Positions 1,979 through 35,237 of a stretch of DNA of 64,000 nt are shown here, piece by piece. Below the pieces are notes generated by a model. That model had not been told where the DNA came from, searched no databases, and saw nothing but the letters and a program-made list of their open reading frames with translations. Position numbers and translations under genes: made by a program. The stretch comes from SAR202 cluster bacterium bin16 (GTDB lineage: Bacteria; Chloroflexota; Dehalococcoidia; Lucifugimonadales; Australimonadaceae), in NCBI GenBank assembly GCA_002238425.1, contig MPMJ01000014.1:1-64000 (forward strand), given 5' to 3'. Each line of letters opens with the position of its first letter. Within the stretch, counting starts at the first letter, position 1.

Positions 1979-3556
1979 TTACTCCTGCCGCGCCCGGTCC
2001 TGCTCGATGAGGACGCGCCGCAACAGTTTACCGGAGGCGTTCTTGGGGATGGCGTCGATGAACTCGACCTCGCGCAGCTGCTTGAACGTCGCCACGCGCT
2101 CGGCGACGAACGACTTGAGTTCGTCGGCGGAGGGCTCGGCATCAGGCTTGCGTACCACGTACGCCTTCGGCACCTCGCCTGCTTCGTCGTCGGCCTTCGG
2201 GATGACGGCGGCGTCGGCGACGCCGGGGTGCTCGAGCAGCAGGCCCTCCAACTCGGCGGGCGCGACCTGGAAGCCCTTGTACTTGATGAGCTCCTTCTTG
2301 CGGTCGACGATGCTCACGTAGCCGTCCTCGTCCATGCTGGCGATGTCGCCCGTGTGGAACCAGCCGTCCGGCGTGATGGCCTCCGCAGTCGCCTCCGGCT
2401 GGCGGTAGTAGCCCTTCATCACCTGCGGGCCGCGGACCAGGAGCTCGCCGAGCTCCCCGGGGGGCAGGTCGCGGTCGCCCGATTCGAGGTCGACGATGCG
2501 CTCCTCGGTGTCCGGCAGCGCGGGGCCTATCGTGCCCGGCCTGCCGCGCTCGTCGGTGAAGTCGGTGTTGGTCATGGGGGACGTCTCGGTGAGGCCGTAG
2601 CCTTGGATGACGGCGCATCCGAGCCGCTCCGCGAGGCGGGTCTGCAACTCGCCGGAAAGCGGGGCCGCGCCGGTGAGCAGGAAGCGGAGCGACGAGACGT
2701 CGTACTCGTCGAGGAGCGGCGTCAGCGTGAGACCGAGGCAGACGGGCGGCACGGTGTAGAGCACCGTCATGCGATGCTCCGCGATGAGCGCCAGCATCTC
2801 GCGCATGTCGAAGCGCCCCATCATCACCTGCGTCGCTCCGGCAGCGATGGCGCTCAGCTGGAGGACGGTCATGCCGTAGATGTGGAAGAGCGGCAGATGC
2901 ACGAGCATCACGTCGCCACGACGGACGACGCCCTCCTCACCGGGGCGTCCGAGGTTCTGCCGGACGTTCGTATGGAGGTTGGAGTGCGTGAGCATGACGC
3001 CCTTCTGCAGGCCCGTGGTGCCGGAGGAGAAGGGCAGCGCGGCGATGTCCTCGTAGGGGTCGAGCGCGGGTTCGGGCGGCGGGCCGCTCTGCGCCTCGAT
3101 CAGCGACCAGAACGAGGGCGCGGTATCGGCGCCTTCCGCGATGAGGATGCGCTCTATGGGCTCTTCCGAACCGAAGAGCGCGAGGTCTGCGGCATCGGCC
3201 AGCGTGTGATGGACGATGAGCGCCTGCGCGCCGGACGCCTGCAACTGGTATGCGATCTCGCGCTCGCGGTAGCCGGAGTTGACGGTCGTGACCGTCGCGC
3301 CTGCCTTCAGGATGCCGAAGAAGGCGATCTCGAACTCGGCGCAGTTGGGCGAGAGGATGCCGACGATGTCGCCCTTGCCGAGGCCCATCGCCGCGAGTGC
3401 AGACGCGAACCTGCCGGAGTGCGCGTCCAGCTCCGCGAACGTGAACCGGCGCTCGCCGTCGATGATGGCGATCTCGTCCGGCCATCGCTCGGCTGCCTGC
3501 TCCAGCAGGCGCTGGACGGGCTCCGGGTTGTATGGGGCAAGTGATGAGCGGCTCAT
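1979..3556 (-). CDS. AMP-dependent acyl-CoA synthetase/ligase (4-coumarate:CoA ligase-like)
   Basis: FSSGTTGLQKGVMLTH, YGLTETSP, GWFHTGD, DRKKELIKYKGFQVAPAELE, PKNASGKLLRR motifs. ORF opens at 3622; ATG at 3556 preferred because a -35/-10 lies at 3594-3622. Confidence 0.88.
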   Translation of the reverse strand: MSRSSLAPYNPEPVQRLLEQAAERWPDEIAIIDGERRFTFAELDAHSGRFASALAAMGLGKGDIVGILSPNCAEFEIAFFGILKAGATVTTVNSGYREREIAYQLQASGAQALIVHHTLADAADLALFGSEEPIERILIAEGADTAPSFWSLIEAQSGPPPEPALDPYEDIAALPFSSGTTGLQKGVMLTHSNLHTNVRQNLGRPGEEGVVRRGDVMLVHLPLFHIYGMTVLQLSAIAAGATQVMMGRFDMREMLALIAEHRMTVLYTVPPVCLGLTLTPLLDEYDVSSLRFLLTGAAPLSGELQTRLAERLGCAVIQGYGLTETSPMTNTDFTDERGRPGTIGPALPDTEERIVDLESGDRDLPPGELGELLVRGPQVMKGYYRQPEATAEAITPDGWFHTGDIASMDEDGYVSIVDRKKELIKYKGFQVAPAELEGLLLEHPGVADAAVIPKADDEAGEVPKAYVVRKPDAEPSADELKSFVAERVATFKQLREVEFIDAIPKNASGKLLRRVLIEQDRARQE

Positions 3557-3593
3557 GGGGATCCGGCCGACCTCTGCGTCCAGGTTCGGCGTG

Positions 3594-3654
3594 AAACTAC
3601 CCGACCCGCCCGTGGCAGTCAACGCGGGCGGCAGTGTGCGCGGACTCCTATAAT
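3594..3654. promoter_or_regulatory. Divergent promoter region between ligase and PKS
   Basis: Minus strand TTGACT (3617-3622) -17 nt- TAGTTT (3594-3599) toward ligase; plus strand perfect TATAAT (3649-3654) 38 nt before the PKS GTG, but no good -35. Confidence 0.4.
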
Positions 3655-3692
3655 GCGCTTGTCAGTCGATGACCCAGTCCGAGTGAGGGGCA

Positions 3693-6600
3693 GTGATGGC
3701 ATCCGAGGGGAAGGTCGACTCCAGCAGACTCCCCAGCGAGTCCGTGGGCGGAGAGCCTATCGCGGTGGTGGGGATGGCGTGCCGGTTCCCCAGCGCCACG
3801 GGGCTTCCGGCGTTCTGGCGCCAGTTGGAAGCCGGCGAGAGCGCGGTCATCGAGGGCGTTCCGGGGTCCGGGGTCGGGCGCGTGGGGTACCTGTTCCCCG
3901 ACGCAGCGGTACAAGCCGAGGCGTGCAAGTTCGGGGCGTACATCGACGGGATCGACCAGTTCGATGCTGGGTTCTTCCGCATCTCCCCGGTGGAGGCACA
4001 GTTGCTGGACCCGCAGCAGCGGCTGATGCTGGAGACGAGTTGGCGAGCCCTCGAAGACGCCGGTATAGACCCGGACACGCTGAAGGGCAGCCGCACCGGG
4101 GTCTACGCGGGTATCAGCAACAACGAGTACCGGGGGCTGATCCTGGGCGTCAGCGACACCGCCGACCCTGCCACGAGCCTCTACACGGTCACCGGCACGT
4201 CGTTCAACACGGCCATCGGGCGCGTGGCCTTCGCGCTCGGGCTACAGGGGCCGGCGATCGCGGTGGACACCGCGTGCTCGTCGTCGCTCGTGGCGGTGCA
4301 CCAGGCGGTGGTAGGGCTGCAGCGTGGCGAGGCCGACCTTGCGCTGGCAGGAGGCGTACACGCGATCCTGTCAGGGCGGCTGCTGGAGCTGCGGGCGAAC
4401 GCCGGGATGCTGGCGCCGGACGGACGATGCAAGACGTTCGACGCCGCAGCGAACGGGTACGTGCGGGGCGAGGGCTGCGGCCTCCTCGTGCTAAAGCGGT
4501 TGAGCGAGGCGGAGGCGGACGGCGACCGGATATGGGGCGTGATACGCGGCTCGGCGCTGAACCAGGACGGGGCGAGCCAGGGGCTGACGGTGCCGAGCGA
4601 GAGCGCTCAGGAGCAGGTAATCGAGGCGGCGTTGCTCCGGGCAGGGCTCGAACCGTGGGAAGTGGACTACGTGGAGGCGCACGGAACGGGGACGCCAGTG
4701 GGCGACCCGATCGAGATGCAAGCCACGGGAACGGTGTACAGCAGGGGGCGCGAGGCAGACCACCCGCTGCTCGTCGGGTCGGTGAAGACGAACATCGGTC
4801 ACCTGGAGTCCGCGGCGGGCGCCGCCAGCCTGATCAAGGTGATGCTGGCGATGAAGCACCGGGTGATTCCGAAGCACCTGAACTTCCGCAACCCGAACCC
4901 GGAGATCGACTGGGAGCGGATGACGGTGCGGGTGGCGTCGGAGACGATGGAGTGGCCGGTCGTTCCCGACCGTCCGCCACGGGCGGGCATCAGCGGGTTC
5001 GGGTGGTCCGGGACGAACGCGCACGTCATCGTCGAGGGGTACGGGGAGCCCATAGCGGCTGACGCAGGGAACGGTCTGCCGGCGGGGCCTTCGGTGGCTA
5101 TCGCGGTTGCGCTGCCGGAGTCTGGACACCCTCATCCTAACCTTCCCCCATCAAGGGGGAAGGGACCGGAAGTCTCGACAGCGGAGGAGCGGGAGTTGGC
5201 GGCGCGGGGGACGCGACTGCTGCCGCTGTCGGGGAAGTCGAGGCAGGCGCTCCGGGAGCAGGCGGAACGGTATGTCGCGTGGCTCAACGAGCATCCCGAG
5301 CGATTCCCACCCGACAGCACCGCCAGCGGCGAAGCGCTGTCAGACATGGCGTGGACGGCGAGCGTCGGGCGGAGTCACTTCCCGCACCGCTCGGGCGTTG
5401 TCTTTCGCGATGCGGCGTCGCTGCGCGAGCGGCTGCGGGAGGTCGCGGAGGACGACGAGGCGCCCGACGGGCCGGAGCCACGAGCCGCGTCGAAGGTGGC
5501 GTTCGTCTACACCGGTCAGGGCAGCCAGTGGGTTGGGATGGGAGAGGCGCTGTATGAGAGCGAGACGGTGTTCCGGGCAGTGCTGGACCGGTGCGAGCGT
5601 TGGGTGCAGGAGCATCGCGGAGCGTCGCTGGTGGACGTGATGTTCGGGCGACCCGGTGCTGCGGGCGACCTGAACGACCCCGCATGGACGCAGCCTGCGA
5701 CCTACGCGCTCCAGTGCGGACTGACGGCGCTGTGGTCGAGCCTGGGTGTGCGCCCGGACGTGGTGATGGGCCACAGCCTCGGCGAGATCGCGGCGTCGCA
5801 GACGGCGGGCGTGTTCAGCCTCGAGGACGGGCTGCGCTTCGCCGCAGCACGCGGCGAACTGATGGCGTCGCTGCCGGTGGCGGGCGCGATGGCGGCGGTG
5901 TTCGCGTCTGCGTCCCACGTGACGGAGGCACTCGAGGAGTGGAACGCTGCGACAGAAGGGATGGGGCTGAGCATCGCCGCGGACAACGGAGCGCACCAAG
6001 TTGTGAGTGGCGAGGCGAGGGAGGTCGAGCAGATCGTGCAGCGGTTCGAGGCAGAGGGGCTTCGCGTGAACCGGCTGCGGAGCAGCCCCGGCTACCACAG
6101 CGTGCTGGTGGAACCGGCGCTGGACGATCTGGCGGCGGTGATCGACGGCATAGCAGTTGCGGCTCCATCCATCCCGCTGGTGAGCAACGTGACTGGCCGG
6201 TTAATCGAGCAAGGCGGCGTGCAGGACCCGGCGTACTGGCGGCGGCACGCTCGGCAGCCGGTGGCGTTCCGGGGGTGCGTCGAGACGCTCGCTGAGATGG
6301 GCGTCGACGCCGTAGTGGAACTGGGGCCGCACGCAGTGCTGGGGCCGATGGCGAGCCTCGCGTGGCCGGAGACGAGCGCCGCCCCGGCGGTGCTGTCGAG
6401 TCTCCACCGGCCGCCGCGGGACCCGGCAGAGCCCGTCCAAGACTCGACCGGCGGGTTCATCGAAGGCGTCGCAGCGGCGTACGAGGCGGGCATCCCGTTC
6501 TCGTTCGCGGGGCTGTTCGCAGGAGAGTCGCGGCGGCGGGTCGCGCTGCCGGGGTATCCATTCCAACGGCAGTCGTACTGGGTCGATGAAGTGCGACGGC

Positions 6601-9600
6601 GGCGCGTGGCCGCGAGGCACCCGCTGCTGGGGACCCGGCACGAGTCACCTCGCGGCGAGACATCGTTCGAGTCGGAGCTATTCCCGGCCGACCCTGCGTG
6701 GCTGAACGACCACCGGGTGTTCGGGCGGGTGATCGCACCGGGCGCGCTGTACGGGGCGATGGCGGCGTCGGCACTGGCGAGCGCACAAGGGTCGGTGGCA
6801 GTGGAGGAGATGCAGCTGGTCACCCCGCTGGTCCTGCCCGAACAGGACGGAGAGCAGGGGTCCGGGCAGGAGGGGCGGAGCGTCCAGATGGTGCTGGACG
6901 CCCCGGACGGGACGTCGCCCCGCGGTTTCGAGATATTCAGCCGCGGGGAAGGAGAGGAAGGGTGGACGCTGCACGCCCAGGGGCGAGTAGCGTCCGGTGC
7001 GGAACGGCAGGGACGCGAGCGGGTCGAGGTCGACCAACTCAAGGCCGGTCTGTCGGCGGAGGACCTGCCGGCGTTCTACCGGGCGCGCGCCGAGACCAAC
7101 ATCAATCTCGGGCCGTCGTTCCGAACGCTCCTGGGGCTCTGGCGCGGAGAGGGCGAGGCGGTCGGCGAGATAGTCCTGCCCGAAGCGGTGGACGGTGCAG
7201 GGCTGCCCGTGCACCCGGTGCTGCTGGACGGCTGCTTCCAGGTGATGGCGGCGGCGCGCAACCGGGAGGGGCTCGAAGACGGGGCGACCTACCTGCCCTT
7301 CGGATGGGAGCGGCTCTGGCTGGCGGAACGATTGCCGGAACGGGTGATCTGCCACGCCCGCATGCGGGAGAGCATCCGGGATGCTGAACAGGAGAGCGCA
7401 GCCGCCGAGCCGAGGGAGGTGTTCGCAGGGGACCTGCGGTTCTACAGCCCGGACGGGGTAGAGCTCGGTGGGTTGAGCGGGTACACGGTGAAGCGGGCGA
7501 CGCGAGCGGCCGTGCTGTCGGGGACCGAGGGAGTGAACGACCTTCTCTACGAGGTCATCTGGCGGGACAAGCCGCTTCCGCAAGGGATGCCATCCGCAGA
7601 CTTCCTTCCGAGTCCGTCAGCCATCGCGGCGCGCTCCGGGCCGTTCTCAGAGTATCTGGTCGCGGAGGGTGTCGGAGCCGAGGAGAGGACAGCGCTGCTG
7701 ACGGACCTCGAACGGCTGTCGTGGCGGTACGCGCTCGCGGCGCTTGAGCAGTTGGGGTGGGAGCGGAAAGTGGGAGAAGCGGTCGATCCGGAACCCCTGC
7801 GGGAGCGGTTCGGGGTTTCGGCAGAACACACGCGCCTGTTCCGTCGGCTATTCGAACTGCAGGCGAGGGCTGGCATCGTGAAGGCGGAAGGCGACGGCTT
7901 CGTCGTGGTGGTCGGAAGCGACGATTCACTGCCGGAAGCGGTGCCGAGCGATCCTGAAGCGTTCGCGGACGGAATGGCATCGCACTACGCGCACGGCGCG
8001 GTCGAAGTCGGACTGTTCCGGCGGTCTGCCGCTGCACTGGCAGACGTGCTCGTTGGAAAAGCAGACCCGCTGACCTTGCTGTTCAGCAGCGGAGAGCCGA
8101 CGGCCGCCGACCTCTACATGCGCGCGCCGGTGGCGCGCGCGGCGAACCGGATGCTGGGCGACGCCGTCGCGGCGCTGCTGGAAGCGTTCCCGGACGGACG
8201 ACGGCTGCGCGTGCTGGAGATCGGGGCAGGCACGGGGTCGGCGACGGAATTGGTGTTGCCGGAGCTTCCAGCGGGCCGGTTCGACTACGTCTACACAGAC
8301 ATATCGGCGGGCTTCTTCGCGGAAGCTGAAGGGCGCTTCGGCGGGAGTGAAGCGTCGATAGAGTACCGGGTGCTGGACGTCGAGAAAGACCCGGTGGCGC
8401 AGGGGTTCGACGCGCACGGCTACGACCTCGTCATCGCGTCGAATGTGCTGCACGCGACGCGCTACCTGGAGGAGACGCTTGCGCACTGCCGCGACCTCCT
8501 CGCACCATCGGGGCAGTTGCTGGCGCTCGAGAACCTTCGCGGCCAGGGCTGGCTCGACCTGACATTCGGGCAGTTGGACGGCTGGTGGCGGTTCGCCGAC
8601 TCCTACCGTCCGCACCATGCGCTGGCCAGCCCCGCCGTGTGGCGGCAGGCGCTCGGCGACGCGGGCTTCGTGGAGGCGGAGGTGCTGGGGGTGGAGGCGT
8701 CAGCGTCAGCGGAGCCTGACAGAGGCGTCATCATGGCGCAGGGTCCGTCGGAGGTCATGGAACCGGCAGGCGTCTGGGTGCTCGCGGGCGACGGGAGCGG
8801 GGTGGCAGAGCAACTCGCAGCGGAACTGTCGGCGCGCAACCAGGCCGTGGTTCTGGCGGGGACGCAGGTGGAAGCGGAGGACCGCGAATCGTGGCGGGCG
8901 CTGCTGGAAAGGTTGCCTGCGGACGTGCCGCTCAACGGCGTCGTCCATCTCATGGCGTTGGACGGGCACGGTCCGGATGCCACCGCTGATGAGTTCGCAC
9001 AGGACGTAAGACACGGGGCGGCGAGCGCGCTTGCGCTGGTGCAGGGCATAGCCGATGCCGACGTGACTCCGGCGAAGGGGTTGTGGCTGCTCACGCGCGG
9101 CGGGCAGGTGTTGGAGAAGGAGCACGGCGGAGAGATCGCGGGCGCAGCGCTGTGGGGTTTAGGGAAGGTCGTGGCGCGTGAGGCGCCGCACCTGCAGCCG
9201 CGGATGCTCGACCTCGACCCCGGAGCGCCGCCTTCGCTGTCGGACCTCGTCAACGAGCTGCTGTACCCGGACCCGGAGACGCATATCGCCTATCGCAGAG
9301 GGTACCGCCAAACAGCTCGGCTCGTCCGGGCCGGTAGCGCGACCGAGCGGCTGACGTTGTCGGAAGACTCAGCCTGGCTGCTGGAGCCGGATGCGGGCGG
9401 TGCGCTCGAAGGGCTGGAGATAGGCCCATTCCCTGCCCGTCCCCTAGAGCCACGGGACGTCCGAATAGCAGTGGAGGCTGCGGGGCTCAACTTCTGGGAC
9501 CTGTTCCGCGCACTCGGCCTCATCGACGAGGGGTTGCTGGGCGGCGAGTTCTGCGGGCGGGTGCTGGAGGTCGGTAGCGACGTGACAAGCGTCTCGGTGG

Positions 9601-12600
9601 GAGAGCGAGTTGTGGGGTTGGCATTCGGGACGTTCGGGTCCGAGGCCGTCACGCGAGAAGAGATGGTTGCGTCCGCGCCGCAGGGGTTCTCCGCAACGGA
9701 GCTTGCCACGATCCCGACGGCGTTCGTGTCGGCGGCGTTGTCGTTCGACCTGTCCGGGCTGCATCCCGGTGATCGGGTGCTCATCCACTCGGGCGCAGGA
9801 GGCGTAGGGCTGGCCGCCATACAACTGGCGCAGGCGGTGGGGGCCGAGGTGTTCGCGACCGCGAGCGCGCCGAAGCAGGCGTACCTGCGCTCGCTGGGTG
9901 TTCAGCACGTGTTCGACAGCCGCTCGACGAAGTTCGGGCAGGAGATCCTCGACGCCACGGGCGGCGAAGGCGTTCACGTCGTGGTGAACAGCCTCACGGG
10001 AGAGGGTTTCATCGACGCGAGCCTGTCGTGCCTCGCACAGGACGGGCGGTTCGTCGAACTGGCCCGGTTGGACATCCTGTCCGAGGAGGAGATGGCGGCG
10101 GTGCGGCCTGACGTCTCCTACGCCATCCTGATGCTGGACGTTCTGAAGGAGCATGACCCCGCGACACCCGGGAATGCCCTGCGACGCGTCATGCAGCAGC
10201 TGGCGGCGGGAGAGGTGACGCCGCTCGTCCATACCCGGTGGTCGATGACCGAAACCGGGCCTGCGATGAAGTTCATGCGGGCGGCACGGCACATCGGGAA
10301 GATCGTGCTGGCCAACTCTCCCGTCGAGAGCGGACGGCTTCGCGAGGACAGGACGTACCTCGTGACCGGCGGACTCGGCGGCATCGGATGCGCGCTGGCG
10401 GAGTGGCTCGCGGAGCGGGGCGCAGGCGCTATCGTGCTGAACGGACGCCGTCCTCCGGACCCGGAGGTTGCCGATGCCATCGACGCGTTACGGGGACGCG
10501 GCGGAACCGTCCAGGTGGAGATCGCGGACGTCACGGACGCGGAGGCGGTCGACCGGATGCTGGAGCGCATCGATGCGACGCTGCCGCCGCTGGCGGGCGT
10601 CATCCACAGCGTGGGCGTGCTGTCCGACGCGGCGCTGACGAACCAGAATTGGGAGCGGTTCGAGGATGTGCTTTGGCCGAAGGTGCTGGGAGCCTGGCAC
10701 CTGCACCGAGCGACCGCCGGGCGCGACCTCGACATGTTCGTCCTGTTCTCGAGCGTTGCGGGCGTACTGGGCAATCCGGGGCAGGCGAACCACGCCTCGG
10801 CCAACGCCTTCCTCGACCAACTCGCCGGTCACCGGCGCGCGCTGGGGCTCCCCGGCCAGACCATCGCGTGGGGCGCGTGGTCAGGACTGGGCGAGGCGGA
10901 GGAGCAACGGGAGCGCATCGCCCGGCAGTTGGAGGCGGCCGGGACTGGCTGGATCACCCCGGAGCAGGGGCTCAAGGCGTTCGACGAGGTGCTCAGGCAG
11001 GACATGACCACCGGGATGGCGGCGTCAGTGGACTGGCAGGTCTTTTCGGAGGGGCACGAGCAACGTCCGCCATTGTTGGAGGAGCTGCTGGCCACCTCCG
11101 AGGACAGCGCCGCCGAGGCGACTACCTCGCGGGGCGACGTGCTGACCGGCCTCTGGGATGCGTCGATAGCGGAGCGTGAGCAGATGCTGGCGTCGTTCCT
11201 GCAGCGGGAACTGCAGGCGGTGATGCGCCTGCCGACGCCACCGGCGGCATCGGTGGAGTTCTCCGAGTTGGGGATGGACTCGCTGATGGCGGTGGAGTTG
11301 CGCAACCGTGTGAACCGCGCATTCGCCGGAGAGTACGTGGCGCCGAACACCGTGGTGTTCGATTACCCGAGCGTCACGGCGCTCGCGCGCCACCTGGCCG
11401 GAGAACTCGGAGAGCCTGCCGAGGCGGCGCTCCCGGAACGGCGCGCGCCGGAAGTGCTGGTGCGGTCCGACGTGAGGGACGGCATCGCTATCGTTGGGAT
11501 GGCGTGCCGGTTCCCCGGCGCGGAGGACCTCTCGGCCTTCTGGCGTCAGTTGGAGGCGGGCGAGAGCGCGATCACAAACGGACGAGAGGGTTCCGGCAAC
11601 TGGTATGGCGCCGTAGGAGACCCTGCCGCGAAAGACACAACCTACCTGCGCGGAGCGTTCGTTAAGGACATCGATCTGTTCGACTCTCGGTTCTTCCGCA
11701 TCGCGCCGATCGAAGCCCGGATGATGGACCCGCAACAGCGGATGATGCTGGAGACAAGCTGGCAGGCGCTCGAGGACGCGGGCATCGACCCCGACCGGCT
11801 GCGGGGCAGCCGAACAGGTGTGTACGCGGGGGTCGGCGGCAGCGAGTACCGGGACCTCATCCAGACCAGCGGCAGGTTCAACAGCTACCTCGGCACCACC
11901 GGCAGCGTGACCGTTGGCCGGGTTGCGTTCGCGCTCGGCCTCGAGGGGCCCGCAATGCCGATGGACATGGCGTGCGCCTCGTCGCTCGCCGCAGTGCACC
12001 AGGCGGTCGCCGGCCTGCAGCGCGGCGAGGTGGACCTCGCTCTGGCGGGCGGGGTCAACGCGGTGCTGTCCACCTCGGTCACGAGGTTCATGGCGGACCT
12101 CGGCATGTTGTCGGCGGACGGCGAATGCAGGACGTTCGATGCAGCCGCGGACGGCTACGTGCGAGGCGAGGGCTGCGGCATCGTGGTGCTGAAGCGGTTG
12201 AGCGACGCCGAGGCCGACGGCGACCGGATATGGGGCGTCATCCGCGGATCGGCGGTAAACCAGAACGGCGCGAGCATGGGCCTGACGGTCCCCAAGGGTC
12301 CGGCACAGGAGCGCGTTATCGAGGAAGCACTCGCACGGGCGGGCGTCGAACCCTCGGAAGTGGACTACCTTGAAGCGCACGGGGTCGGGTCGAACCTGGG
12401 CGACCCCATAGAGGTGCGGGCCGCGGCAGCGGTGTACGGGAGGGGGCGCGAAGCAGACCGCCCGCTCCTCGTGGGATCGGTGAAGACGAACATCGGCCAC
12501 CTGGAGTCCGCAGCGGGGATCGCCGCCCTCATCAAGGCCGTGCTTGCGATGGAGCACGGCGTTATCCCGAAGCACCTGCACCTCGACAACCCGAACCCCA

Positions 12601-13826
12601 ACCTGGACTGGGAGCAACTCCCCGTACAGGTGACCACGGCGACGACCGACTGGCCGCCCGTCTCGGGCCGTCCGCCACGGGCGGGTGTGAGCGCGTTCGG
12701 GCTGTCGGGTACGAACTCGCACGTCGTCGTGGAGGGCTACGGCGAACCCGGGAGCGCCAAGGGAGAGAACGGCTGGCCTGCGGGGCCTTCGGTACCAGTT
12801 GCCGTTCCTGTGCCGGAGCCTGCCCCCGATGGAGCGATCGCCGGTCGGGGGGCACGGCTGCTGCCCCTGTCAGGAAAGACAGACCGCGCCCTCCGAGAGT
12901 TAGCGGCGCGCTATCTCTCGTGGCTCGACGAGCACCCCGAACAGTTCCCGCCCGATAGCGCCGCCAGCGATGAAGCGCTGTCCGACGCGGCCTGGACGGC
13001 GAGCGTAGGCCGCAGCCACTTCCCGTACCGAGCGGGCGTGGTCTTCCGTGATGTTGCATCGTTACGCGAGGGGCTGCGGGCGGTTGCGGAACGCGGGGAG
13101 GCACCCGATGAGCAGGAGCCGCAGGCCGCATCAAGGGTCGCGTTCGTCTACACCGGCGAGGGCAGCCGGCGGGTGGGAATGGGCAAGGCGCTGTACGAGA
13201 GCGAGCCGGTCTTCCGCGCAGTTCTGGACCGATGCGACGCAGCGCTGCGGGAGGTCCGCGGCGCGTCGCTGCTGGACGTGATGTTCGGCCGGCCCGGAGC
13301 GGCGGGTGACATCGACGATCCTGCGTGGTCGCAGCCGGTGATCTATGGACTGGAGTGCGCGCTGACGTCGCTCTGGTTGAGCGTGGGCGTGCGTCCGGAC
13401 GTGGTGGCATGGAACGGTAATGGCGAGATTTCAGCGTCGCAGGCCGCAGGCGTGTTCAGCCTCGAGGACGGCCTGCACTTCGCGGCAAGACACGGCGAGC
13501 TGGCGGCATCAGGCACGCAGAAGAGTCCCGAGGCGGCCTTCGACGGCATCACGCTTGTTTCGCCTTCCGTACCCTTGGTGAGCAGCCTTACGGAAGAGCC
13601 GGGGGCCAGTCTCGTTGTCGAGGTCGGCCCGCAAGCAGGCGGCGGGTTCGTGGAGACGGTTGCCAGAGCGTATGAGGCCGGGCTCTCGCTTTCGTTCCCG
13701 GGGTTGTTCGCGGGAGAGTCCCGACGGCGGGTCGCTCTGCCCGGCTACCCGTTCCAGCGCCGCCGTCACTGGATAGAGCCGCTGGAGCGGCTGATACCGG
13801 GCGCAGGTGGCCCTCAGCGTCTCTGA
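3693..13826 (+). CDS. Type I polyketide synthase, KS-AT-DH-cMT-ER-KR-ACP-KS-(degenerate AT)
   Basis: KS1 VDTACSSS/EAHGTGT/KTNIGH; AT1 GHSLGE; DH HxxxGxxxxP (HRVFGRVIAP) and DGCFQ; cMT LEIGAGTGS; ER HSGAGGVGLAAIQLA; KR TGGLGGIG; ACP GMDSL; KS2 MDMACASS/EAHGVGS/KTNIGH; shrunken AT2. 3377 aa, GTG start (or ATG at 3696). Confidence 0.95.
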   Translation: MMASEGKVDSSRLPSESVGGEPIAVVGMACRFPSATGLPAFWRQLEAGESAVIEGVPGSGVGRVGYLFPDAAVQAEACKFGAYIDGIDQFDAGFFRISPVEAQLLDPQQRLMLETSWRALEDAGIDPDTLKGSRTGVYAGISNNEYRGLILGVSDTADPATSLYTVTGTSFNTAIGRVAFALGLQGPAIAVDTACSSSLVAVHQAVVGLQRGEADLALAGGVHAILSGRLLELRANAGMLAPDGRCKTFDAAANGYVRGEGCGLLVLKRLSEAEADGDRIWGVIRGSALNQDGASQGLTVPSESAQEQVIEAALLRAGLEPWEVDYVEAHGTGTPVGDPIEMQATGTVYSRGREADHPLLVGSVKTNIGHLESAAGAASLIKVMLAMKHRVIPKHLNFRNPNPEIDWERMTVRVASETMEWPVVPDRPPRAGISGFGWSGTNAHVIVEGYGEPIAADAGNGLPAGPSVAIAVALPESGHPHPNLPPSRGKGPEVSTAEERELAARGTRLLPLSGKSRQALREQAERYVAWLNEHPERFPPDSTASGEALSDMAWTASVGRSHFPHRSGVVFRDAASLRERLREVAEDDEAPDGPEPRAASKVAFVYTGQGSQWVGMGEALYESETVFRAVLDRCERWVQEHRGASLVDVMFGRPGAAGDLNDPAWTQPATYALQCGLTALWSSLGVRPDVVMGHSLGEIAASQTAGVFSLEDGLRFAAARGELMASLPVAGAMAAVFASASHVTEALEEWNAATEGMGLSIAADNGAHQVVSGEAREVEQIVQRFEAEGLRVNRLRSSPGYHSVLVEPALDDLAAVIDGIAVAAPSIPLVSNVTGRLIEQGGVQDPAYWRRHARQPVAFRGCVETLAEMGVDAVVELGPHAVLGPMASLAWPETSAAPAVLSSLHRPPRDPAEPVQDSTGGFIEGVAAAYEAGIPFSFAGLFAGESRRRVALPGYPFQRQSYWVDEVRRRRVAARHPLLGTRHESPRGETSFESELFPADPAWLNDHRVFGRVIAPGALYGAMAASALASAQGSVAVEEMQLVTPLVLPEQDGEQGSGQEGRSVQMVLDAPDGTSPRGFEIFSRGEGEEGWTLHAQGRVASGAERQGRERVEVDQLKAGLSAEDLPAFYRARAETNINLGPSFRTLLGLWRGEGEAVGEIVLPEAVDGAGLPVHPVLLDGCFQVMAAARNREGLEDGATYLPFGWERLWLAERLPERVICHARMRESIRDAEQESAAAEPREVFAGDLRFYSPDGVELGGLSGYTVKRATRAAVLSGTEGVNDLLYEVIWRDKPLPQGMPSADFLPSPSAIAARSGPFSEYLVAEGVGAEERTALLTDLERLSWRYALAALEQLGWERKVGEAVDPEPLRERFGVSAEHTRLFRRLFELQARAGIVKAEGDGFVVVVGSDDSLPEAVPSDPEAFADGMASHYAHGAVEVGLFRRSAAALADVLVGKADPLTLLFSSGEPTAADLYMRAPVARAANRMLGDAVAALLEAFPDGRRLRVLEIGAGTGSATELVLPELPAGRFDYVYTDISAGFFAEAEGRFGGSEASIEYRVLDVEKDPVAQGFDAHGYDLVIASNVLHATRYLEETLAHCRDLLAPSGQLLALENLRGQGWLDLTFGQLDGWWRFADSYRPHHALASPAVWRQALGDAGFVEAEVLGVEASASAEPDRGVIMAQGPSEVMEPAGVWVLAGDGSGVAEQLAAELSARNQAVVLAGTQVEAEDRESWRALLERLPADVPLNGVVHLMALDGHGPDATADEFAQDVRHGAASALALVQGIADADVTPAKGLWLLTRGGQVLEKEHGGEIAGAALWGLGKVVAREAPHLQPRMLDLDPGAPPSLSDLVNELLYPDPETHIAYRRGYRQTARLVRAGSATERLTLSEDSAWLLEPDAGGALEGLEIGPFPARPLEPRDVRIAVEAAGLNFWDLFRALGLIDEGLLGGEFCGRVLEVGSDVTSVSVGERVVGLAFGTFGSEAVTREEMVASAPQGFSATELATIPTAFVSAALSFDLSGLHPGDRVLIHSGAGGVGLAAIQLAQAVGAEVFATASAPKQAYLRSLGVQHVFDSRSTKFGQEILDATGGEGVHVVVNSLTGEGFIDASLSCLAQDGRFVELARLDILSEEEMAAVRPDVSYAILMLDVLKEHDPATPGNALRRVMQQLAAGEVTPLVHTRWSMTETGPAMKFMRAARHIGKIVLANSPVESGRLREDRTYLVTGGLGGIGCALAEWLAERGAGAIVLNGRRPPDPEVADAIDALRGRGGTVQVEIADVTDAEAVDRMLERIDATLPPLAGVIHSVGVLSDAALTNQNWERFEDVLWPKVLGAWHLHRATAGRDLDMFVLFSSVAGVLGNPGQANHASANAFLDQLAGHRRALGLPGQTIAWGAWSGLGEAEEQRERIARQLEAAGTGWITPEQGLKAFDEVLRQDMTTGMAASVDWQVFSEGHEQRPPLLEELLATSEDSAAEATTSRGDVLTGLWDASIAEREQMLASFLQRELQAVMRLPTPPAASVEFSELGMDSLMAVELRNRVNRAFAGEYVAPNTVVFDYPSVTALARHLAGELGEPAEAALPERRAPEVLVRSDVRDGIAIVGMACRFPGAEDLSAFWRQLEAGESAITNGREGSGNWYGAVGDPAAKDTTYLRGAFVKDIDLFDSRFFRIAPIEARMMDPQQRMMLETSWQALEDAGIDPDRLRGSRTGVYAGVGGSEYRDLIQTSGRFNSYLGTTGSVTVGRVAFALGLEGPAMPMDMACASSLAAVHQAVAGLQRGEVDLALAGGVNAVLSTSVTRFMADLGMLSADGECRTFDAAADGYVRGEGCGIVVLKRLSDAEADGDRIWGVIRGSAVNQNGASMGLTVPKGPAQERVIEEALARAGVEPSEVDYLEAHGVGSNLGDPIEVRAAAAVYGRGREADRPLLVGSVKTNIGHLESAAGIAALIKAVLAMEHGVIPKHLHLDNPNPNLDWEQLPVQVTTATTDWPPVSGRPPRAGVSAFGLSGTNSHVVVEGYGEPGSAKGENGWPAGPSVPVAVPVPEPAPDGAIAGRGARLLPLSGKTDRALRELAARYLSWLDEHPEQFPPDSAASDEALSDAAWTASVGRSHFPYRAGVVFRDVASLREGLRAVAERGEAPDEQEPQAASRVAFVYTGEGSRRVGMGKALYESEPVFRAVLDRCDAALREVRGASLLDVMFGRPGAAGDIDDPAWSQPVIYGLECALTSLWLSVGVRPDVVAWNGNGEISASQAAGVFSLEDGLHFAARHGELAASGTQKSPEAAFDGITLVSPSVPLVSSLTEEPGASLVVEVGPQAGGGFVETVARAYEAGLSLSFPGLFAGESRRRVALPGYPFQRRRHWIEPLERLIPGAGGPQRL
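5127..5165. repeat. Dispersed palindromic repeat inside PKS coding sequence
   Basis: CACCCTCATCCTAACCTTCCCCCATCAAGGGGGAAGGGA, 36/39 identical by eye to the copy at 35199-35237. Confidence 0.75.
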
Positions 13827-13855
13827 TTGACACAGGTATACCCCATTGCTAGGGT
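13827..13855 (+). promoter_or_regulatory. Candidate sigma70-type promoter for ACP-PPTase-hydrolase
   Basis: TTGACA (13827-13832), directly after the PKS stop, 17-nt spacer, TAGGGT (13850-13855). Confidence 0.45.
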
Positions 13856-13903
13856 GTTTGAATACTGGGGCACATGCCCATGCACACAGGAGAGGAATTG
13901 CCC

Positions 13904-14146
13904 ATGGCCACGACCGAAGAACGTATCAGGAAGCTGGTCGACGAGAACCTTGAGATCGAAGGGCGGCCGCTGGGCCGTGGCCTCGACCTGAACGCCAGCC
14001 TGCGGGACGCCGGCGTCCCTTCGGCAGACTTCCTCGCCTTCACCAAGGTGGTGGCGGAAGAGTTCAACCTCACCTTCAGCCCTGAAGACTGCTCCCGGTT
14101 CGAAAACCTGGGGGACCTCGTAACGTTTCTGGACTCCCGGGGCTAG
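13904..14146 (+). CDS. Discrete acyl carrier protein
   Basis: 80 aa with ACP helical pattern; DAGVPSADFLAFTKVVAEEF aligns with DLGxDSLxxVELvxxLEEEF (Ser kept). ORF opens at 13874; ATG at 13904 has AGGAGAGG SD. Confidence 0.75.
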   Translation: MATTEERIRKLVDENLEIEGRPLGRGLDLNASLRDAGVPSADFLAFTKVVAEEFNLTFSPEDCSRFENLGDLVTFLDSRG

Positions 14147-14171
14147 TCCCTCGCGATTCAACGGCAGGCAG

Positions 14172-14229
14172 AGGCTCTCAGAAGAGATGCGGGCATGGTG
14201 ATGATTGCCCAGAACTCTTCTGAGAGCCT
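14172..14229 (+). promoter_or_regulatory. 15-bp perfect inverted repeat flanking PPTase start codon
   Basis: AGGCTCTCAGAAGAG (14172-14186) / CTCTTCTGAGAGCCT (14215-14229), 28-nt loop containing ATG at 14195. Confidence 0.6.
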
Positions 14230-14944
14230 TTCGTTTGTTCCGGGCCCCTGGTGGAGTCCGTTCGCCACAACAGCCGGCGTTCAGATTGTGCACGTCGCCC
14301 TGAGTCCCGATCCGGCCTGCGAGAGCGAGGCATACGGATGGCTGGACAAAGCGGAGCGGGGCGCGTGGGGGAAGTACCTGCCACGGCCACGCCGTCAGTT
14401 CACCCTCTGCCGCGCCGCACTGCGCGCCATCCTCTGCGAACGGTTCGACTGCCGGAACGACCAGCTTTCGTTCGGCGCAGGCCGTCACGGGAAGCCGTTC
14501 GCCATAGCCGGAGGAGCGCGTATCCCGTTCAATTTCAACGTCAGTCACAGCGGTGGCCACGGCCTGATCGCCCTGTCGGCGGCGGGACGGTTGGGGGTAG
14601 ACATCGAAGAACGCATCCCGAGACGCTACCTGAACGAACTGATAGAGGCAGTCATGGCGCCCGAAGAGCAGACGGAACTTGCCGCTCTTCCGGAGTCCGC
14701 TAAACTGCACCTGTTCTACCGCCTCTGGACGCTCAAGGAGGCGCTGATCAAGGCGCTGGGCACGGGGTTCTCCACCGATCCTTCCGGGTTCCAGGCGCCT
14801 CCCGCGATGCGCAGGGACGGCAGGTCCAGCGTATTCAGCTTTCCGAACCTGCCGTCTGTCGCCTGGATGCTGGAGGACATCGGGGACGAACGGTTCGCCG
14901 CCGCCCTCGCCTATGAGTTGGAGAGCCCCAAGATTGGCCGATAA
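14195..14944 (+). CDS. 4'-phosphopantetheinyl transferase (Sfp type)
   Basis: FNVSHSGGHGLIALS, LGVDIE and YRLWTLKEALIKALGTG motifs. Confidence 0.88.
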   Translation: MVMIAQNSSESLSFVPGPWWSPFATTAGVQIVHVALSPDPACESEAYGWLDKAERGAWGKYLPRPRRQFTLCRAALRAILCERFDCRNDQLSFGAGRHGKPFAIAGGARIPFNFNVSHSGGHGLIALSAAGRLGVDIEERIPRRYLNELIEAVMAPEEQTELAALPESAKLHLFYRLWTLKEALIKALGTGFSTDPSGFQAPPAMRRDGRSSVFSFPNLPSVAWMLEDIGDERFAAALAYELESPKIGR

Positions 14945-15842
14945 TCCGCAACATCCCTGGAAGATCCCTGAGCCTGTCTCAGTCCATGAGATAGCGATGG
15001 CCGATCAGACGCGCGTCGTCCTCCGGCGGCACGGCAACCCCGACGGACCCCGGCTGGTGCTGAGCCACGGCAACGGCCTCGCCATAGATCTGTACTACCC
15101 CTTCTGGTCGCTGCTGACCGGCGACTTCGACGTCGTGGTCTACGACTTGAGGAACCATGGCTGGAACGCCATAACCGACCTGAAGGAGCACACCATCCCA
15201 ACGCTGATCGACGACCATGACCTCGTCATCGATGCGATCGACCGCCACCTGGGAGAGAAGCCGAAGATAGGGGTGTTTCACTCGCTCTCGTCCCTGGCTC
15301 CCCTGTTGTCGCCCACGGAAGGCAGCAGTTTCGAGGCGCTGATCCTGTTCGACCCTCCCCTGTGCAAGCCGGGCAAGAGCTACGAGGAGTTCGACTCTGC
15401 CGCCATCAAGACGGCGGCGGCGGCACGGCGGCGCTCGTACCGGTTCCGCAGCCGGGGAGACTTCGTCGAACTCTTGCAGATTTCGCCGAACTTCAGGCTC
15501 ACTGTCCCGGGGACACGCTATCTGATGGCCGAGACAACGCTGCGCGAGGAAACGGATGGCGAGGGATACGAACTGCGGTGCCCTCCCGAGTACGAGGCGC
15601 AGATCATCGACTACGCCAGGGTCTTCGCGGTTTCCGTGGATCTCACAGCGCTGCAGTGTCCGACGAAGGTCATAGGAGCAGACCCGACCCTTCCCTACTC
15701 CTACCTGCCGACGATGGACCTGAGCGATATGCTGAGCGTGGACTACGACTTCCTGCCCGACGCAACGCATCTCCTCCAACTGGAGCAGCCGGAGGAATGT
15801 GTGGCGAAGATGCGCCAGTTCATCGAATCCGTCTCGGGGTGA
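14913..15842 (+). CDS. Alpha/beta hydrolase, possible polyketide release enzyme
   Basis: LVLSHGNG oxyanion region, VVVYDLRNHG, nucleophile elbow VFHSLSS, C-terminal DATHLLQLEQPE His; overlaps PPTase end. Confidence 0.75.
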   Translation: MSWRAPRLADNPQHPWKIPEPVSVHEIAMADQTRVVLRRHGNPDGPRLVLSHGNGLAIDLYYPFWSLLTGDFDVVVYDLRNHGWNAITDLKEHTIPTLIDDHDLVIDAIDRHLGEKPKIGVFHSLSSLAPLLSPTEGSSFEALILFDPPLCKPGKSYEEFDSAAIKTAAAARRRSYRFRSRGDFVELLQISPNFRLTVPGTRYLMAETTLREETDGEGYELRCPPEYEAQIIDYARVFAVSVDLTALQCPTKVIGADPTLPYSYLPTMDLSDMLSVDYDFLPDATHLLQLEQPEECVAKMRQFIESVSG

Positions 15843-17485: not shown

Positions 17486-17555
17486 GAAGCGTACGTCAGA
17501 CGTGGCGCAACGCTAAACTGTGCGGCAGTCCGCCATGGCGCCGGCAGGAGGAAGT

Positions 17556-19394
17556 GTGAGGATAGCCGTCTGCGTAAAGTGGGTGCCCGCGATATCCCGA
17601 ATACGCCTCGACCCGGAGACGAAACGCCTCGTCCGGGAAGGCGTACCGAGCGAACTGAACGCCTACGACGTACTTGCGGTCAACCGCGCGGTCGAACTGA
17701 AGCAGGCGCTGGGCGGCAGCGTCGCGGTCTACACGATGGGGCCACCCGATGCGCGGCGCGGTCTCGTGCGTTGCCTGGCGATGGGGGCTGACGACGCGTT
17801 CCACCTGAACGACTTCGCGTTCGCGGGCGCGGACACACTGGGGACGTCCCGCGCGCTGGCACTCGCACTCTCCCGCGAGGAGTACGACCTCGTCCTGTTC
17901 GGCAACAACAGCGTCGACGCGGAGACCGGACAGGTCGGGCCGGAAGTCGCGGAGATGCTGGGCATCCCCCAGATCACAGCCGTCAGCAAGCTGGAGGTCA
18001 CGAAGGACGGTGCCGTGCGTACGGAGCGGGCACTGGAGAACGGCACCGAGGTCGTGGAAGGCGCGCTACCGCTGCTCGTGTCGGTCACCGAGGGGGTCGC
18101 ACATGATGCGCAAGCCCCACGCGATGCGGTGCGCGCCGCCGAGGAACGCGAGATTGCCGAACTGACTGCCACGATGCTCGCCGACGACGTTTCGCAGTTC
18201 GGGGCGGCGGGCTCGCCGACCTGGGTCGCGGAGGTTCGGCAGATCGAACCGTCGCGCGAGGGCAGGCTCATCAACGAAGGCAGCGCGGCGGCGATGGCGC
18301 GAGAGGCTGTCGCGGCACTCGTTGACCGAGGTGCACTCGATACTGATGCCGATACAGCAGACACTTCGGACACGGCAGCCGACGCTCCCCGCCCCGCTGG
18401 CGGACCGGAACTGTGGGTGATCACTGAGGCGGACGAGAGCGGACTGCGGCCCGTCACGCTCGAGATGCTGGCTGCGGCGCAGCCTGTTGCGGACGTGCTG
18501 CGCGGCAGGGTCGCAGCGTTCGTCATCGGGGGAGGGGATGCGGCAGACTACGCGAGCGCGCTGGGGGAGGCAGGGGCGGATGTGGTCATGGTCGCTTCCG
18601 ATAGCGGGCTATCGGCTTACTCCACGGCTGCATACACAGCGGTGCTGGCGGAGGCCATCGCTGAGCGGCAGCCGTTCGCGGTGCTGCTGCCTTCGACTCC
18701 GAACGGTCGCGACTTAGCGGCACGCGTATCGGCACGGCTGAACCTCGGCCTGACCGGTGACTGCATCGGGCTGGATGTAGACGATTCCGGGCTGGCGCAA
18801 CTCAAGCCCGCATTCGGTGGCAACATCGTTGCCCCCATCTACTCGCGCACGCTCCCGAACATGGCGACAGTGCGGCCCGGCGTGTTCAGCGCACTGCAGC
18901 CAGATCCAGCCAGGAGCATCACGGTAGAGACCATCAGGGCAGCGGCTATACCGAGTGACGGCCTGACACGAGTGGAGTTCCGCGCCGCGCCGGACGACGA
19001 CGCGGCCGCTCTGGACAAGGCGCGGGCGGTCGTGTGCGTCGGGATGGGCGTCGGCGGGCCGGAGCACATCTCTGAGTTGGAGGAACTGCGGGCGCTGCTG
19101 GGCGCAGACCTCATCTGCACGCGAGACGTGGTGGAGGCCGGGTGGATGCCGCGGCAGCGTCAGGTGGGACTGACGGGGCGCTCCATCGCTCCACGCCTGT
19201 ACGTGGGCGTCGGTGTGCGCGGCGATTTCAACCACGCCGTGGGGATACAGCGCGCGGGCACAGTGCTTGCGGTCAACAACGACCGCCGCGCCGCGTTCTT
19301 CCGGGGCCAGTCAGACATAGGCGTGATGGCCGACTGGCGGGAGTTCGTGCCCGCGCTCGTTGAGGAGTTGCGACGCCATCGCAACGGCGGGTGA
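17556..19394 (+). CDS. Electron transfer flavoprotein, fused beta-alpha
   Basis: N-half EtfB-like (RIAVCVKWVP, NAYDVLAVNRAVELK, GNNSVDAETGQVGPEVAEMLGIP); C-half EtfA-like (LTGDCIGLDVD, FGGNIVAPIYSRT, RPGVFSALQPD, ACKs replaced by VGLTGRSIAPRLYVGVGV). Confidence 0.88.
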   Translation: MRIAVCVKWVPAISRIRLDPETKRLVREGVPSELNAYDVLAVNRAVELKQALGGSVAVYTMGPPDARRGLVRCLAMGADDAFHLNDFAFAGADTLGTSRALALALSREEYDLVLFGNNSVDAETGQVGPEVAEMLGIPQITAVSKLEVTKDGAVRTERALENGTEVVEGALPLLVSVTEGVAHDAQAPRDAVRAAEEREIAELTATMLADDVSQFGAAGSPTWVAEVRQIEPSREGRLINEGSAAAMAREAVAALVDRGALDTDADTADTSDTAADAPRPAGGPELWVITEADESGLRPVTLEMLAAAQPVADVLRGRVAAFVIGGGDAADYASALGEAGADVVMVASDSGLSAYSTAAYTAVLAEAIAERQPFAVLLPSTPNGRDLAARVSARLNLGLTGDCIGLDVDDSGLAQLKPAFGGNIVAPIYSRTLPNMATVRPGVFSALQPDPARSITVETIRAAAIPSDGLTRVEFRAAPDDDAAALDKARAVVCVGMGVGGPEHISELEELRALLGADLICTRDVVEAGWMPRQRQVGLTGRSIAPRLYVGVGVRGDFNHAVGIQRAGTVLAVNNDRRAAFFRGQSDIGVMADWREFVPALVEELRRHRNGG

Positions 19395-21493
19395 TGAAGA
19401 GCCGCCTGCTGGCATCCGCACTCCTTGCCGCAGTGGTGCTGGGTCTCATCGCAGCGCTGGATGCGGCGCTGGACGAACCGCAGGTGGAGCGACTCCCCAT
19501 CGTGCCGCCCGAGGAGTCGCCGCTCGCTTCTGCCGAACTGCTGCGCGAGTTTGCCGGGTTCGCATACGCAGACCTCTCGGAGGAGGACTGGGAAGGACTC
19601 GCGCTCTCCCTACTTCCCGGTAGCCAGGCAACATGCACCGTTGAGTCGCTCGCCGTTTACGCTGGAGCGACGCAGCGCGACGCAGCGGAGGCAATAGAAG
19701 CTTCCATCGATCGTGAGGACGCAGGGCGCGTTCAGTTCGTCCGTCTGCCCGCCGTCGAGTGGCGCATCGCCGGCATGACCGTGGAGGGTGAACAGGCCAC
19801 GGTAGAACGGCGCGCGCAGGCCCTGGGACGAGACGCCGTACCTCCGCTGGCGCGCAAGGACAAGTGGGTAGTAGCGGACGGCGTATGGTGGCTGGAACCG
19901 GAGAGCGTCGCGCCCGGATGCAGCGAGAAAGTTCGAGAGGAGGAGGATGTCCTCCCCGGGTACGCTGCCGAAGAAGGAGGTTCCTTCGAACGTCCACTCG
20001 CGATGGGAACACCAGTGAGTGCAGTCTCGCCAGAAGGACGCGCAGTCAACGTGACGCTCACGAAAGCGGAGCGCGGTGTGAGCCCCGCGCCCCCACAGGA
20101 CGGCTTCGAGCACGCCTACGTAGAGATGCGCGTGGAATCAGCGGAGGATGAGCAACTCGGCCTGCCGCCCGGGTTCCACTCCGCATCGTTCGACGGTTGG
20201 TTCCTGCATGAGTCCGGCCCGGTGAGCACTGACATCTGCACCGGCACGGAACACACCGGCGTGACGTGCCAGCTGATCGCTGGCCGCTTCCTCATTGCAG
20301 CGGACGACCCTTCGCCACGGCTCGCGTGGACGGTTACCCAACCCGGTGAGCGCATCGAGGCTCTGGCATGGTGGCGGCTACCCACAACAGAGCGTGGCGG
20401 CGAACCACTGGTACACGACCTCACTCCCGAGGAGACGGCGCGCATCACGACTGAGGCATCCATCTCACCGGACGAATGGCGCACCGACTTCGCTCGAGTA
20501 ACTGCGGACCTGAGCGATGCGGTCGTTGTAAGCGGCGGGCGTGGGCCTATCCCCGTCATCACCCAAGCACGCTACGAGACGATCGAACAGGCCGACGGGT
20601 GGATCAGGGATAGGGAGCCGGTGCTGGCGGCATTCGCCGGAGACGAGGCGCGGGCGTATCCGCTGCGTCTGCTCCTCGCGCACGAGGCGGTGAACGACTG
20701 GCTGGGAGGCTCGCCGCTGCTGGTCACGTACTGCCCACGCTGCAACAGTGCGGCGGTGTTCGAGCGCAACGCCGGAACACTTACACTGGAATTCGACGCA
20801 GCCAGCGCGCTGCGCTCCGAGAACCGGGTACTCTTCGACGAGGCCACGGAGTCGTGGTGGCAGCAGGCGACCGGCGAGGCCGTCGCAGGTGAGTTCGCAG
20901 GGCTCCGGTTGCGGCCAGCCGAAAGCGCCCTCATCTCCTGGAAGGACTTCAAGCGTGCCTACCCGGACGGAACCGTCCTTTCTCAATCATCGGGCTTCGA
21001 TCTCGATTACGAGTTCAACCCGTACTTCAACGTTGATTTCACCCAGCCACCTGAATCCTCCGGCGAGACCGACCCGCGCTTGCCGCCCCGTGCACGAGTG
21101 CTGGGACTCTTGAGCGACGGCGAAGCACTCGCGGTGCCGTTCTCGGAGCTCTTCTTCTCCGGGGTCGTCAACGTAACGGTCGACGGCGCGCCCGTGGCCG
21201 CGTTCTGGCAGCGGGGAACGTCGTCTCCGCTCAGCAGCGCGAACGTTGCAGAGGGACGGGAAGTGGGGGCGGCGGTCGCATTCGATGCCCGGCTCGGGAA
21301 CCGGACGCTCACGTTCCAAGCAGAGCGCGGCGCCTTCATCGACGAACAGACCGGTTCGACGTGGAGCATCACGGGGCAGGCACAGAGCGGGCCACTCGCA
21401 GGCAGCCGTCTGAACGTCTTCCAGCACGCCAATAGCTTCTGGTCGTGCTGGTCGGCGTTCCGACCGACGACAGGGTTATACGCCGCTAGCTGA
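19391..21493 (+). CDS. DUF3179-domain protein with N-terminal signal/TM segment
   Basis: LLVTYCPRCNSAAVFER, SGFDLDYEFNPY, DEQTGSTWSITGQAQSGPLAGSRL; ATGA overlap with ETF. Confidence 0.8.
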   Translation: MMKSRLLASALLAAVVLGLIAALDAALDEPQVERLPIVPPEESPLASAELLREFAGFAYADLSEEDWEGLALSLLPGSQATCTVESLAVYAGATQRDAAEAIEASIDREDAGRVQFVRLPAVEWRIAGMTVEGEQATVERRAQALGRDAVPPLARKDKWVVADGVWWLEPESVAPGCSEKVREEEDVLPGYAAEEGGSFERPLAMGTPVSAVSPEGRAVNVTLTKAERGVSPAPPQDGFEHAYVEMRVESAEDEQLGLPPGFHSASFDGWFLHESGPVSTDICTGTEHTGVTCQLIAGRFLIAADDPSPRLAWTVTQPGERIEALAWWRLPTTERGGEPLVHDLTPEETARITTEASISPDEWRTDFARVTADLSDAVVVSGGRGPIPVITQARYETIEQADGWIRDREPVLAAFAGDEARAYPLRLLLAHEAVNDWLGGSPLLVTYCPRCNSAAVFERNAGTLTLEFDAASALRSENRVLFDEATESWWQQATGEAVAGEFAGLRLRPAESALISWKDFKRAYPDGTVLSQSSGFDLDYEFNPYFNVDFTQPPESSGETDPRLPPRARVLGLLSDGEALAVPFSELFFSGVVNVTVDGAPVAAFWQRGTSSPLSSANVAEGREVGAAVAFDARLGNRTLTFQAERGAFIDEQTGSTWSITGQAQSGPLAGSRLNVFQHANSFWSCWSAFRPTTGLYAAS

Positions 21494-35198: not shown

Positions 35199-35237
35199 CA
35201 CCCCCATCCTGACCTTCCCCCATCGAGGGGGAAGGGA
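35199..35237. repeat. Dispersed palindromic repeat, intergenic copy
   Basis: CACCCCCATCCTGACCTTCCCCCATCGAGGGGGAAGGGA; partner of 5127-5165. Confidence 0.75.

Follow-up and report, generated by a model that had tools for sequence, protein, structure and literature searches.

This locus probably encodes a type I polyketide synthase (PKS) or fatty acid synthase (FAS) of the sup type, in which one methylating module would build the chain, a second ketosynthase (KS2) without acyltransferase (AT) would hand it to a discrete acyl carrier protein (ACP), and the product would be a methyl-branched fatty acid. The name sup stands for "sponge symbiont ubiquitous", and the family (SupA type) is matched here through its published description, which strongly suggests that the locus is a further member of a known and very widespread group and ordinary in kind. 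Its founding description is reportedly that of Fieseler et al. 2007. The locus lies in a window of 64,000 nucleotides, by which is meant the whole stretch of DNA that was analysed, and the contig of this window belongs to a MAG of 3.2 Mb and 101 contigs. Judging from the named relatives that lie nearest in the KS trees, the source MAG probably represents a sponge symbiont of the Chloroflexota (Dehalococcoidia/SAR202-like).

Table 1. Coordinates of the PKS, its domains and the adjoining genes (positions of the window).
Feature	Positions	Strand	Basis or remarks
AMP-dependent acyl-CoA ligase, neighbour outside the conserved set	1979..3622	-	Pfam AMP-binding
Type I PKS, 3377 aa	3693..13826	+	ORF and Pfam domains
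KS1, Cys/His/His catalytic residues intact	3753..5042	+	DTACSSS, EAHGTGT, KTNIGH
AT1, Ser (GHSLGE) and His (GYHS) intact	5502..6344	+	Pfam and motifs
DH, His and Asp intact	6618..7514	+	HRVFGRVIAPG, DGCFQ; 59/59 in family
C-methyltransferase (cMT), SAM motif EIGAGTG	8157..8669	+	Pfam and motif
ER, nucleotide-binding motif HSGAGGVG intact	9450..10310	+	Pfam and motif
KR, His replaces the usual catalytic Tyr (GQANHASAN)	10353..10883	+	His in 60/61 family KRs
ACP1, LGMDSL	11199..11396	+	Pfam and motif
KS2, Cys/His/His intact (DMACASS, EAHGVGS, KTNIGH)	11475..12767	+	Motifs; purifying selection
AT2 relic, AT N-terminal part and YPFQRRRHWI C-terminal tail	13170..13778	+	Ser -> Gly, codon 13416-13418
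Discrete ACP, 90 aa, Ser in GVPS	13874..14146	+	Pfam PP-binding
Sfp/HetI-type 4'-phosphopantetheinyl transferase (PPTase)	14195..14944	+	Pfam ACPS
Alpha/beta hydrolase	14913..15842	+	Pfam Abhydrolase_6

The core of the locus is a single protein with the order KS1-AT1-DH-cMT-ER-KR-ACP1-KS2-AT2 relic, its reading frame open over the full length (Table 1). Pfam matches were obtained twice for KS and AT, and once for PS-DH, methyltransferase, ADH_N/ADH_zinc (the ER), KR and PP-binding. The PKS is followed head to tail by the discrete ACP, the PPTase and the hydrolase, neighbours being separated by about 50 bp or overlapping (the PPTase ends at 14944 and the hydrolase starts at 14913). The preliminary description had placed the same five genes and the same domains from the letters alone, and Pfam agrees with it; the sequence also supports its reading as a fully reducing, C-methylating and FAS-like PKS with a dedicated ACP, PPTase and hydrolase. 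KS1-AT1 and KS2-AT2 are direct repeats, 74-82% identical and 7.6-7.7 kb apart, so that the terminus of the PKS looks like an internal duplication. Across the family the key residues of KS1, AT1, DH, cMT, ER and ACP1 are intact, with both Ser and His of AT1 present in the 58 scorable members (58/58). The Ser of the discrete ACP is conserved in about 50 family loci, and the Ser and His of the hydrolase triad are invariant (47/47). A palindromic repeat of about 39 bp lies in frame in the linker between KS1 and AT1 (5127-5165), where it adds HPHPNLPPSRGKG; a second copy in the window is found at 35199-35237 and about 40 others elsewhere in the genome. A similar in-frame insert was identified near this site in one relative (G003) and none in another (G005).

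The second AT is dead. Its GHSLG motif has become WNGNG, with Gly in place of the nucleophile Ser when aligned to CurL, and a stretch of about 100 residues carrying the catalytic His (the small subdomain) is missing. Family-wide, this subdomain comprises about 100 residues in AT1 versus a median of 15 in AT2; the Ser of AT2 is lost in all scorable cases except one doubtful alignment (L092), and the His in all. As the deletion is shared by all AT2, it most likely predates the spread of the family over phyla. Further erosion differs among lineages, AT2 being nearly gone in L039. In KS2 the Cys and the second His are retained in 64/64 members and the first His in 60/64, with N or Q in the other four; the Cys was counted from the alignment, since a narrow motif pattern misses the divergent flanks, which are remodelled in the family (xLNCAAS and similar). 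Within the genus, dN/dS was 0.08-0.19 for KS2 versus 0.34-0.55 for the end of AT2. The residues kept in KS2, the discrete ACP and the hydrolase, the low dN/dS of KS2 and the residues lost from AT2 argue for cooperation of the first three and for a non-functional AT2. KS2-AT2 was also modelled with AlphaFold, with moderate confidence only (pLDDT 69), and nothing decisive rests on the model. One alternative takes the terminus for a decaying, non-catalytic leftover of a lost second module, retained for synthase dimerisation only. The visible erosion of AT2, which varies among lineages, and the raised dN/dS of its end would agree with such a remnant, but this erosion is limited to AT2, and an invariant Cys over many phyla together with low dN/dS is unlike a mere scaffold, which makes this alternative unlikely.

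The distribution of the family was followed with KS2-AT2 as query against 59 genomes, comprising the window's own and its relatives. The same PKS was identified in 4 of 5 genomes of the same genus (83-88% identity, one 74%). Several other families of the order also have it (about 56-65%). When GTDB contigs were scanned, about 60 further loci were identified in at least ten phyla, mostly at 50-64% identity. Their labels are Chloroflexota (SAR202, Dehalococcoidia, Caldilineaceae), Gemmatimonadota, Alpha- and Gammaproteobacteria, Acidobacteriota, Latescibacterota, Nitrospirota, Nitrospinota, Deltaproteobacteria, Spirochaetaceae, Rhodothermaceae and Acidimicrobiaceae, and the isolate series of the relatives presumably resemble sponge MAG sets. 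The border of the family is clear, identity falling to 48% or less for cyanobacterial, myxobacterial and actinobacterial PKSs. The domain order is constant wherever the contig is long enough; the exceptions are two Bryobacterales contigs of modular type and a few loci that are partial or have a broken frame. The architecture, which had not been recognised in the preliminary description, is that of a large described family, with about 60 loci of the same order. It had also been considered that related genomes might have a normal second module, this copy being a degraded one; the relatives carry the same dead AT2. An assembly chimera or a locally broken module has a negligible probability: the assembly of the MAG in 101 contigs speaks for it, but the structure recurs in four genomes of the genus and in dozens of independent MAGs, some with very long contigs, and the reading frame is open throughout. 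A degraded local copy or chimera is thus rejected by the family-wide conservation. The PKS frame is broken once in each of two members of the order, L037 (2959-12980) and L039 (4481-14022), by MAG error or as a pseudogene.

In the trees, KS1 forms one clade (SH-aLRT 95) and KS2 another (SH-aLRT 100), both apart from modular relatives, as would result from one early duplication. The two modular Bryobacterales contigs (L089, 1-18161; L088, 1-13378) fall outside both clades. They carry genuine tandem modules of the KS-AT-DH-MT-ER-KR-ACP type, their ATs are intact, and among truly modular relatives they are the closest to the family. The KS1 tree mixes phyla, with 21 label changes for 11 phyla where the minimum possible is 10. 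This is a hint of transfer among the phyla of symbionts, to which bin contamination is an alternative.

The neighbourhood was compared in the 45 loci with enough flank. Near the PKS, 36 of them have the discrete ACP, 33 the hydrolase, 22 the PPTase and 3 the ligase. The set whose conservation the preliminary description proposed to check is retained in its ACP, hydrolase and, less often, PPTase, and fails for the ligase, whose proposed place in the pathway does not hold. This gene encodes a generic long-chain acyl-CoA ligase; the three loci where it adjoins the PKS are all from the window's genus, in G005 it lies on a different contig, and it occurs in members of the order without the PKS. On these grounds it was rejected as a pathway gene. 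A starter-loading role, with the ligase activating a fatty acid and loading it on the discrete ACP, the chain entering module 1 and KS2 guarding this entry, is accordingly quite improbable: the adjacency in three genomes of one genus speaks for it, but the ligase is also absent at the loci of other families, and KS2 lies downstream of ACP1. The genes past 15842 (Mg-chelatase-like, fused ETF, DUF3179 and MscS) are unrelated housekeeping genes. Two of them, a one-protein fusion of the ETF subunits followed by the DUF3179 protein, occupy 17520-21493.

The His at the position of the catalytic Tyr of the KR was also identified in 5 of 30 KRs from other PKS loci examined, and a literature search for this substitution gave no direct match. 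In the PDB, the KR region is matched best by mycocerosic acid synthase (MAS). Full reduction by module 1 is assumed because DH and ER are intact, and given the conservation of these two domains the KR with His is presumably active.

In the proposed mechanism, AT1 would load malonyl and module 1 would elongate an acyl chain with malonyl units, with alpha-methylation by the cMT in some cycles or in all of them and full reduction by KR-DH-ER. KS2, placed directly after ACP1, would take the finished chain from it and, with the discrete ACP acting in trans, move it off the synthase by plain transfer or, alternatively, by one last condensation with malonyl put on the discrete ACP by another AT. The hydrolase would then free the acid, or the acyl-ACP would re-enter type II fatty acid synthesis. 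KS2, whose active site is retained, most likely lost its own AT in the common ancestor of the family. Without an AT, KS2 depends on a carrier that is loaded elsewhere, either to receive the chain or to condense with it, and for this role the conserved discrete ACP would be the obvious partner. The four KS2 that lack the first His incline us towards transfer over condensation. Some loci without an ACP or hydrolase nearby, the His that the KR has nearly throughout the family and the odd-numbered methyl isomers of sponges (see below) speak against the model.

True extension by KS2 is a possible but weaker reading. AT1 or FabD would load malonyl in trans on the discrete ACP, KS2 would extend the chain by a final C2 unit that stays unreduced, and the hydrolase would release a beta-keto acid, possibly decarboxylating to a branched methyl ketone. 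All three KS residues in most KS2, the conserved discrete ACP and the lack of reducing domains after KS2 are what such a step would require; against it, the His lost in four members is normally required for condensation, the active-site flanks are remodelled and no AT is left to serve the discrete ACP. Returning to transfer, its extension to the family as a whole, with an ancestral and conserved AT-less KS2 acting in trans with a dedicated ACP, a hand-off to release or to type II FAS, and a functional His-KR, is a tentative proposal to which slightly less than even weight is given. If true, this hand-off device of KS2 and ACP would explain single mid-chain methyl branches.

Methylation at the alpha carbon with extension by C2 units places branches at even carbons only. 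Sponges contain mixtures of 8-/9-Me-16:0 and 10-/11-Me-18:0 (PMC7840048), of which 8-Me-16:0 and 10-Me-18:0 would fit this rule, the 9- and 11-methyl isomers needing another route. A branched lipid, already favoured in the preliminary description, is supported by the sequence as the likeliest product and agrees with the methyl-branched or mid-chain-branched fatty acids proposed for sup (PMC3908369, PMC4245539). A characterised family with identical domain order, raised there as a possible objection, exists in part: the family has been described, and biochemical proof of its product was not found in the literature surveyed. In PKS surveys of sponges the sup genes predominate, and the minimal set of PKS, discrete ACP, PPTase and hydrolase, with no ligase, would lend itself to in vitro reconstitution as a small defined system. 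The conserved terminus with its dead AT and this minimal set make the sup product, and the origin of mid-chain branched fatty acids in sponges, testable.

The assignment to sup follows from the domain plan, the spread over phyla and the distance from characterised PKSs. The sup group dominates sponge metagenomes and is described as unusually small, mono-modular and sponge-specific (PMC3908369, PMC4245539). It occurs independently of taxonomy, in Chloroflexota, Spirochaetota, Proteobacteria and Acidobacteriota (PMC9426513), and many Gemmatimonadetes and Alphaproteobacteria fall in a sponge-specific sup KS clade that has no MIBiG members (PMC10308959); SAR202 sponge symbionts have type I PKS clusters that resemble the clusters in other sponge symbionts (PMC6306507). 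The present family likewise has one complete C-methylating FAS-like module in a small type I PKS, a KS clade separate from modular cis-AT PKSs (the KS tree and the drop in identity at the family border) and, as in PMC9426513 and PMC10308959, members across Chloroflexota, Acidobacteriota, Proteobacteria, Spirochaetota and Gemmatimonadota. No difference from sup was found in this comparison, which was made with descriptions only.

The swf system (sponge widespread fatty acid synthase) is also a mono-modular and fully reducing PKS/FAS of sponge symbionts, where SwfA (KS-AT-DH-ER-KR-ACP) is accompanied by the reductase-sulphotransferase SwfB and the radical SAM protein SwfC (PMC3908369). SwfA has neither a cMT nor a second KS (PMC3908369), and lacks the DPQQ and HGTGT motifs found in KS1 here. 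Among the neighbour genes scanned at the locus there is no reductase-sulphotransferase or radical SAM gene, and with a cMT and KS2 present membership in swf was rejected. A multimodular cis-AT PKS was also discarded, the second module having no working AT and no fused ACP. MAS is an iterative, fully reducing type I PKS making methyl-branched lipids, which uses methylmalonyl-CoA and lacks the cMT and the second KS-AT present here. Fungal highly reducing PKSs of the lovastatin LovB type are iterative, with the plan KS-AT-DH-cMT-ER/KR-ACP; this plan is shared, whereas the present PKS is bacterial and has an intact cis ER motif, a KS-AT relic and a discrete ACP. In the curacin pathway, the CurM thioesterase (3qit) is the first fold match of the hydrolase model (pLDDT 87) and would be its closest solved structure, a likeness among many, since numerous esterases also match; the curacin thioesterase acts together with a sulphotransferase (PMC3908369). 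The closest solved structure to KS2-AT2 is the CurL KS-AT didomain of the same pathway, in which the AT is intact whereas AT2 is dead.
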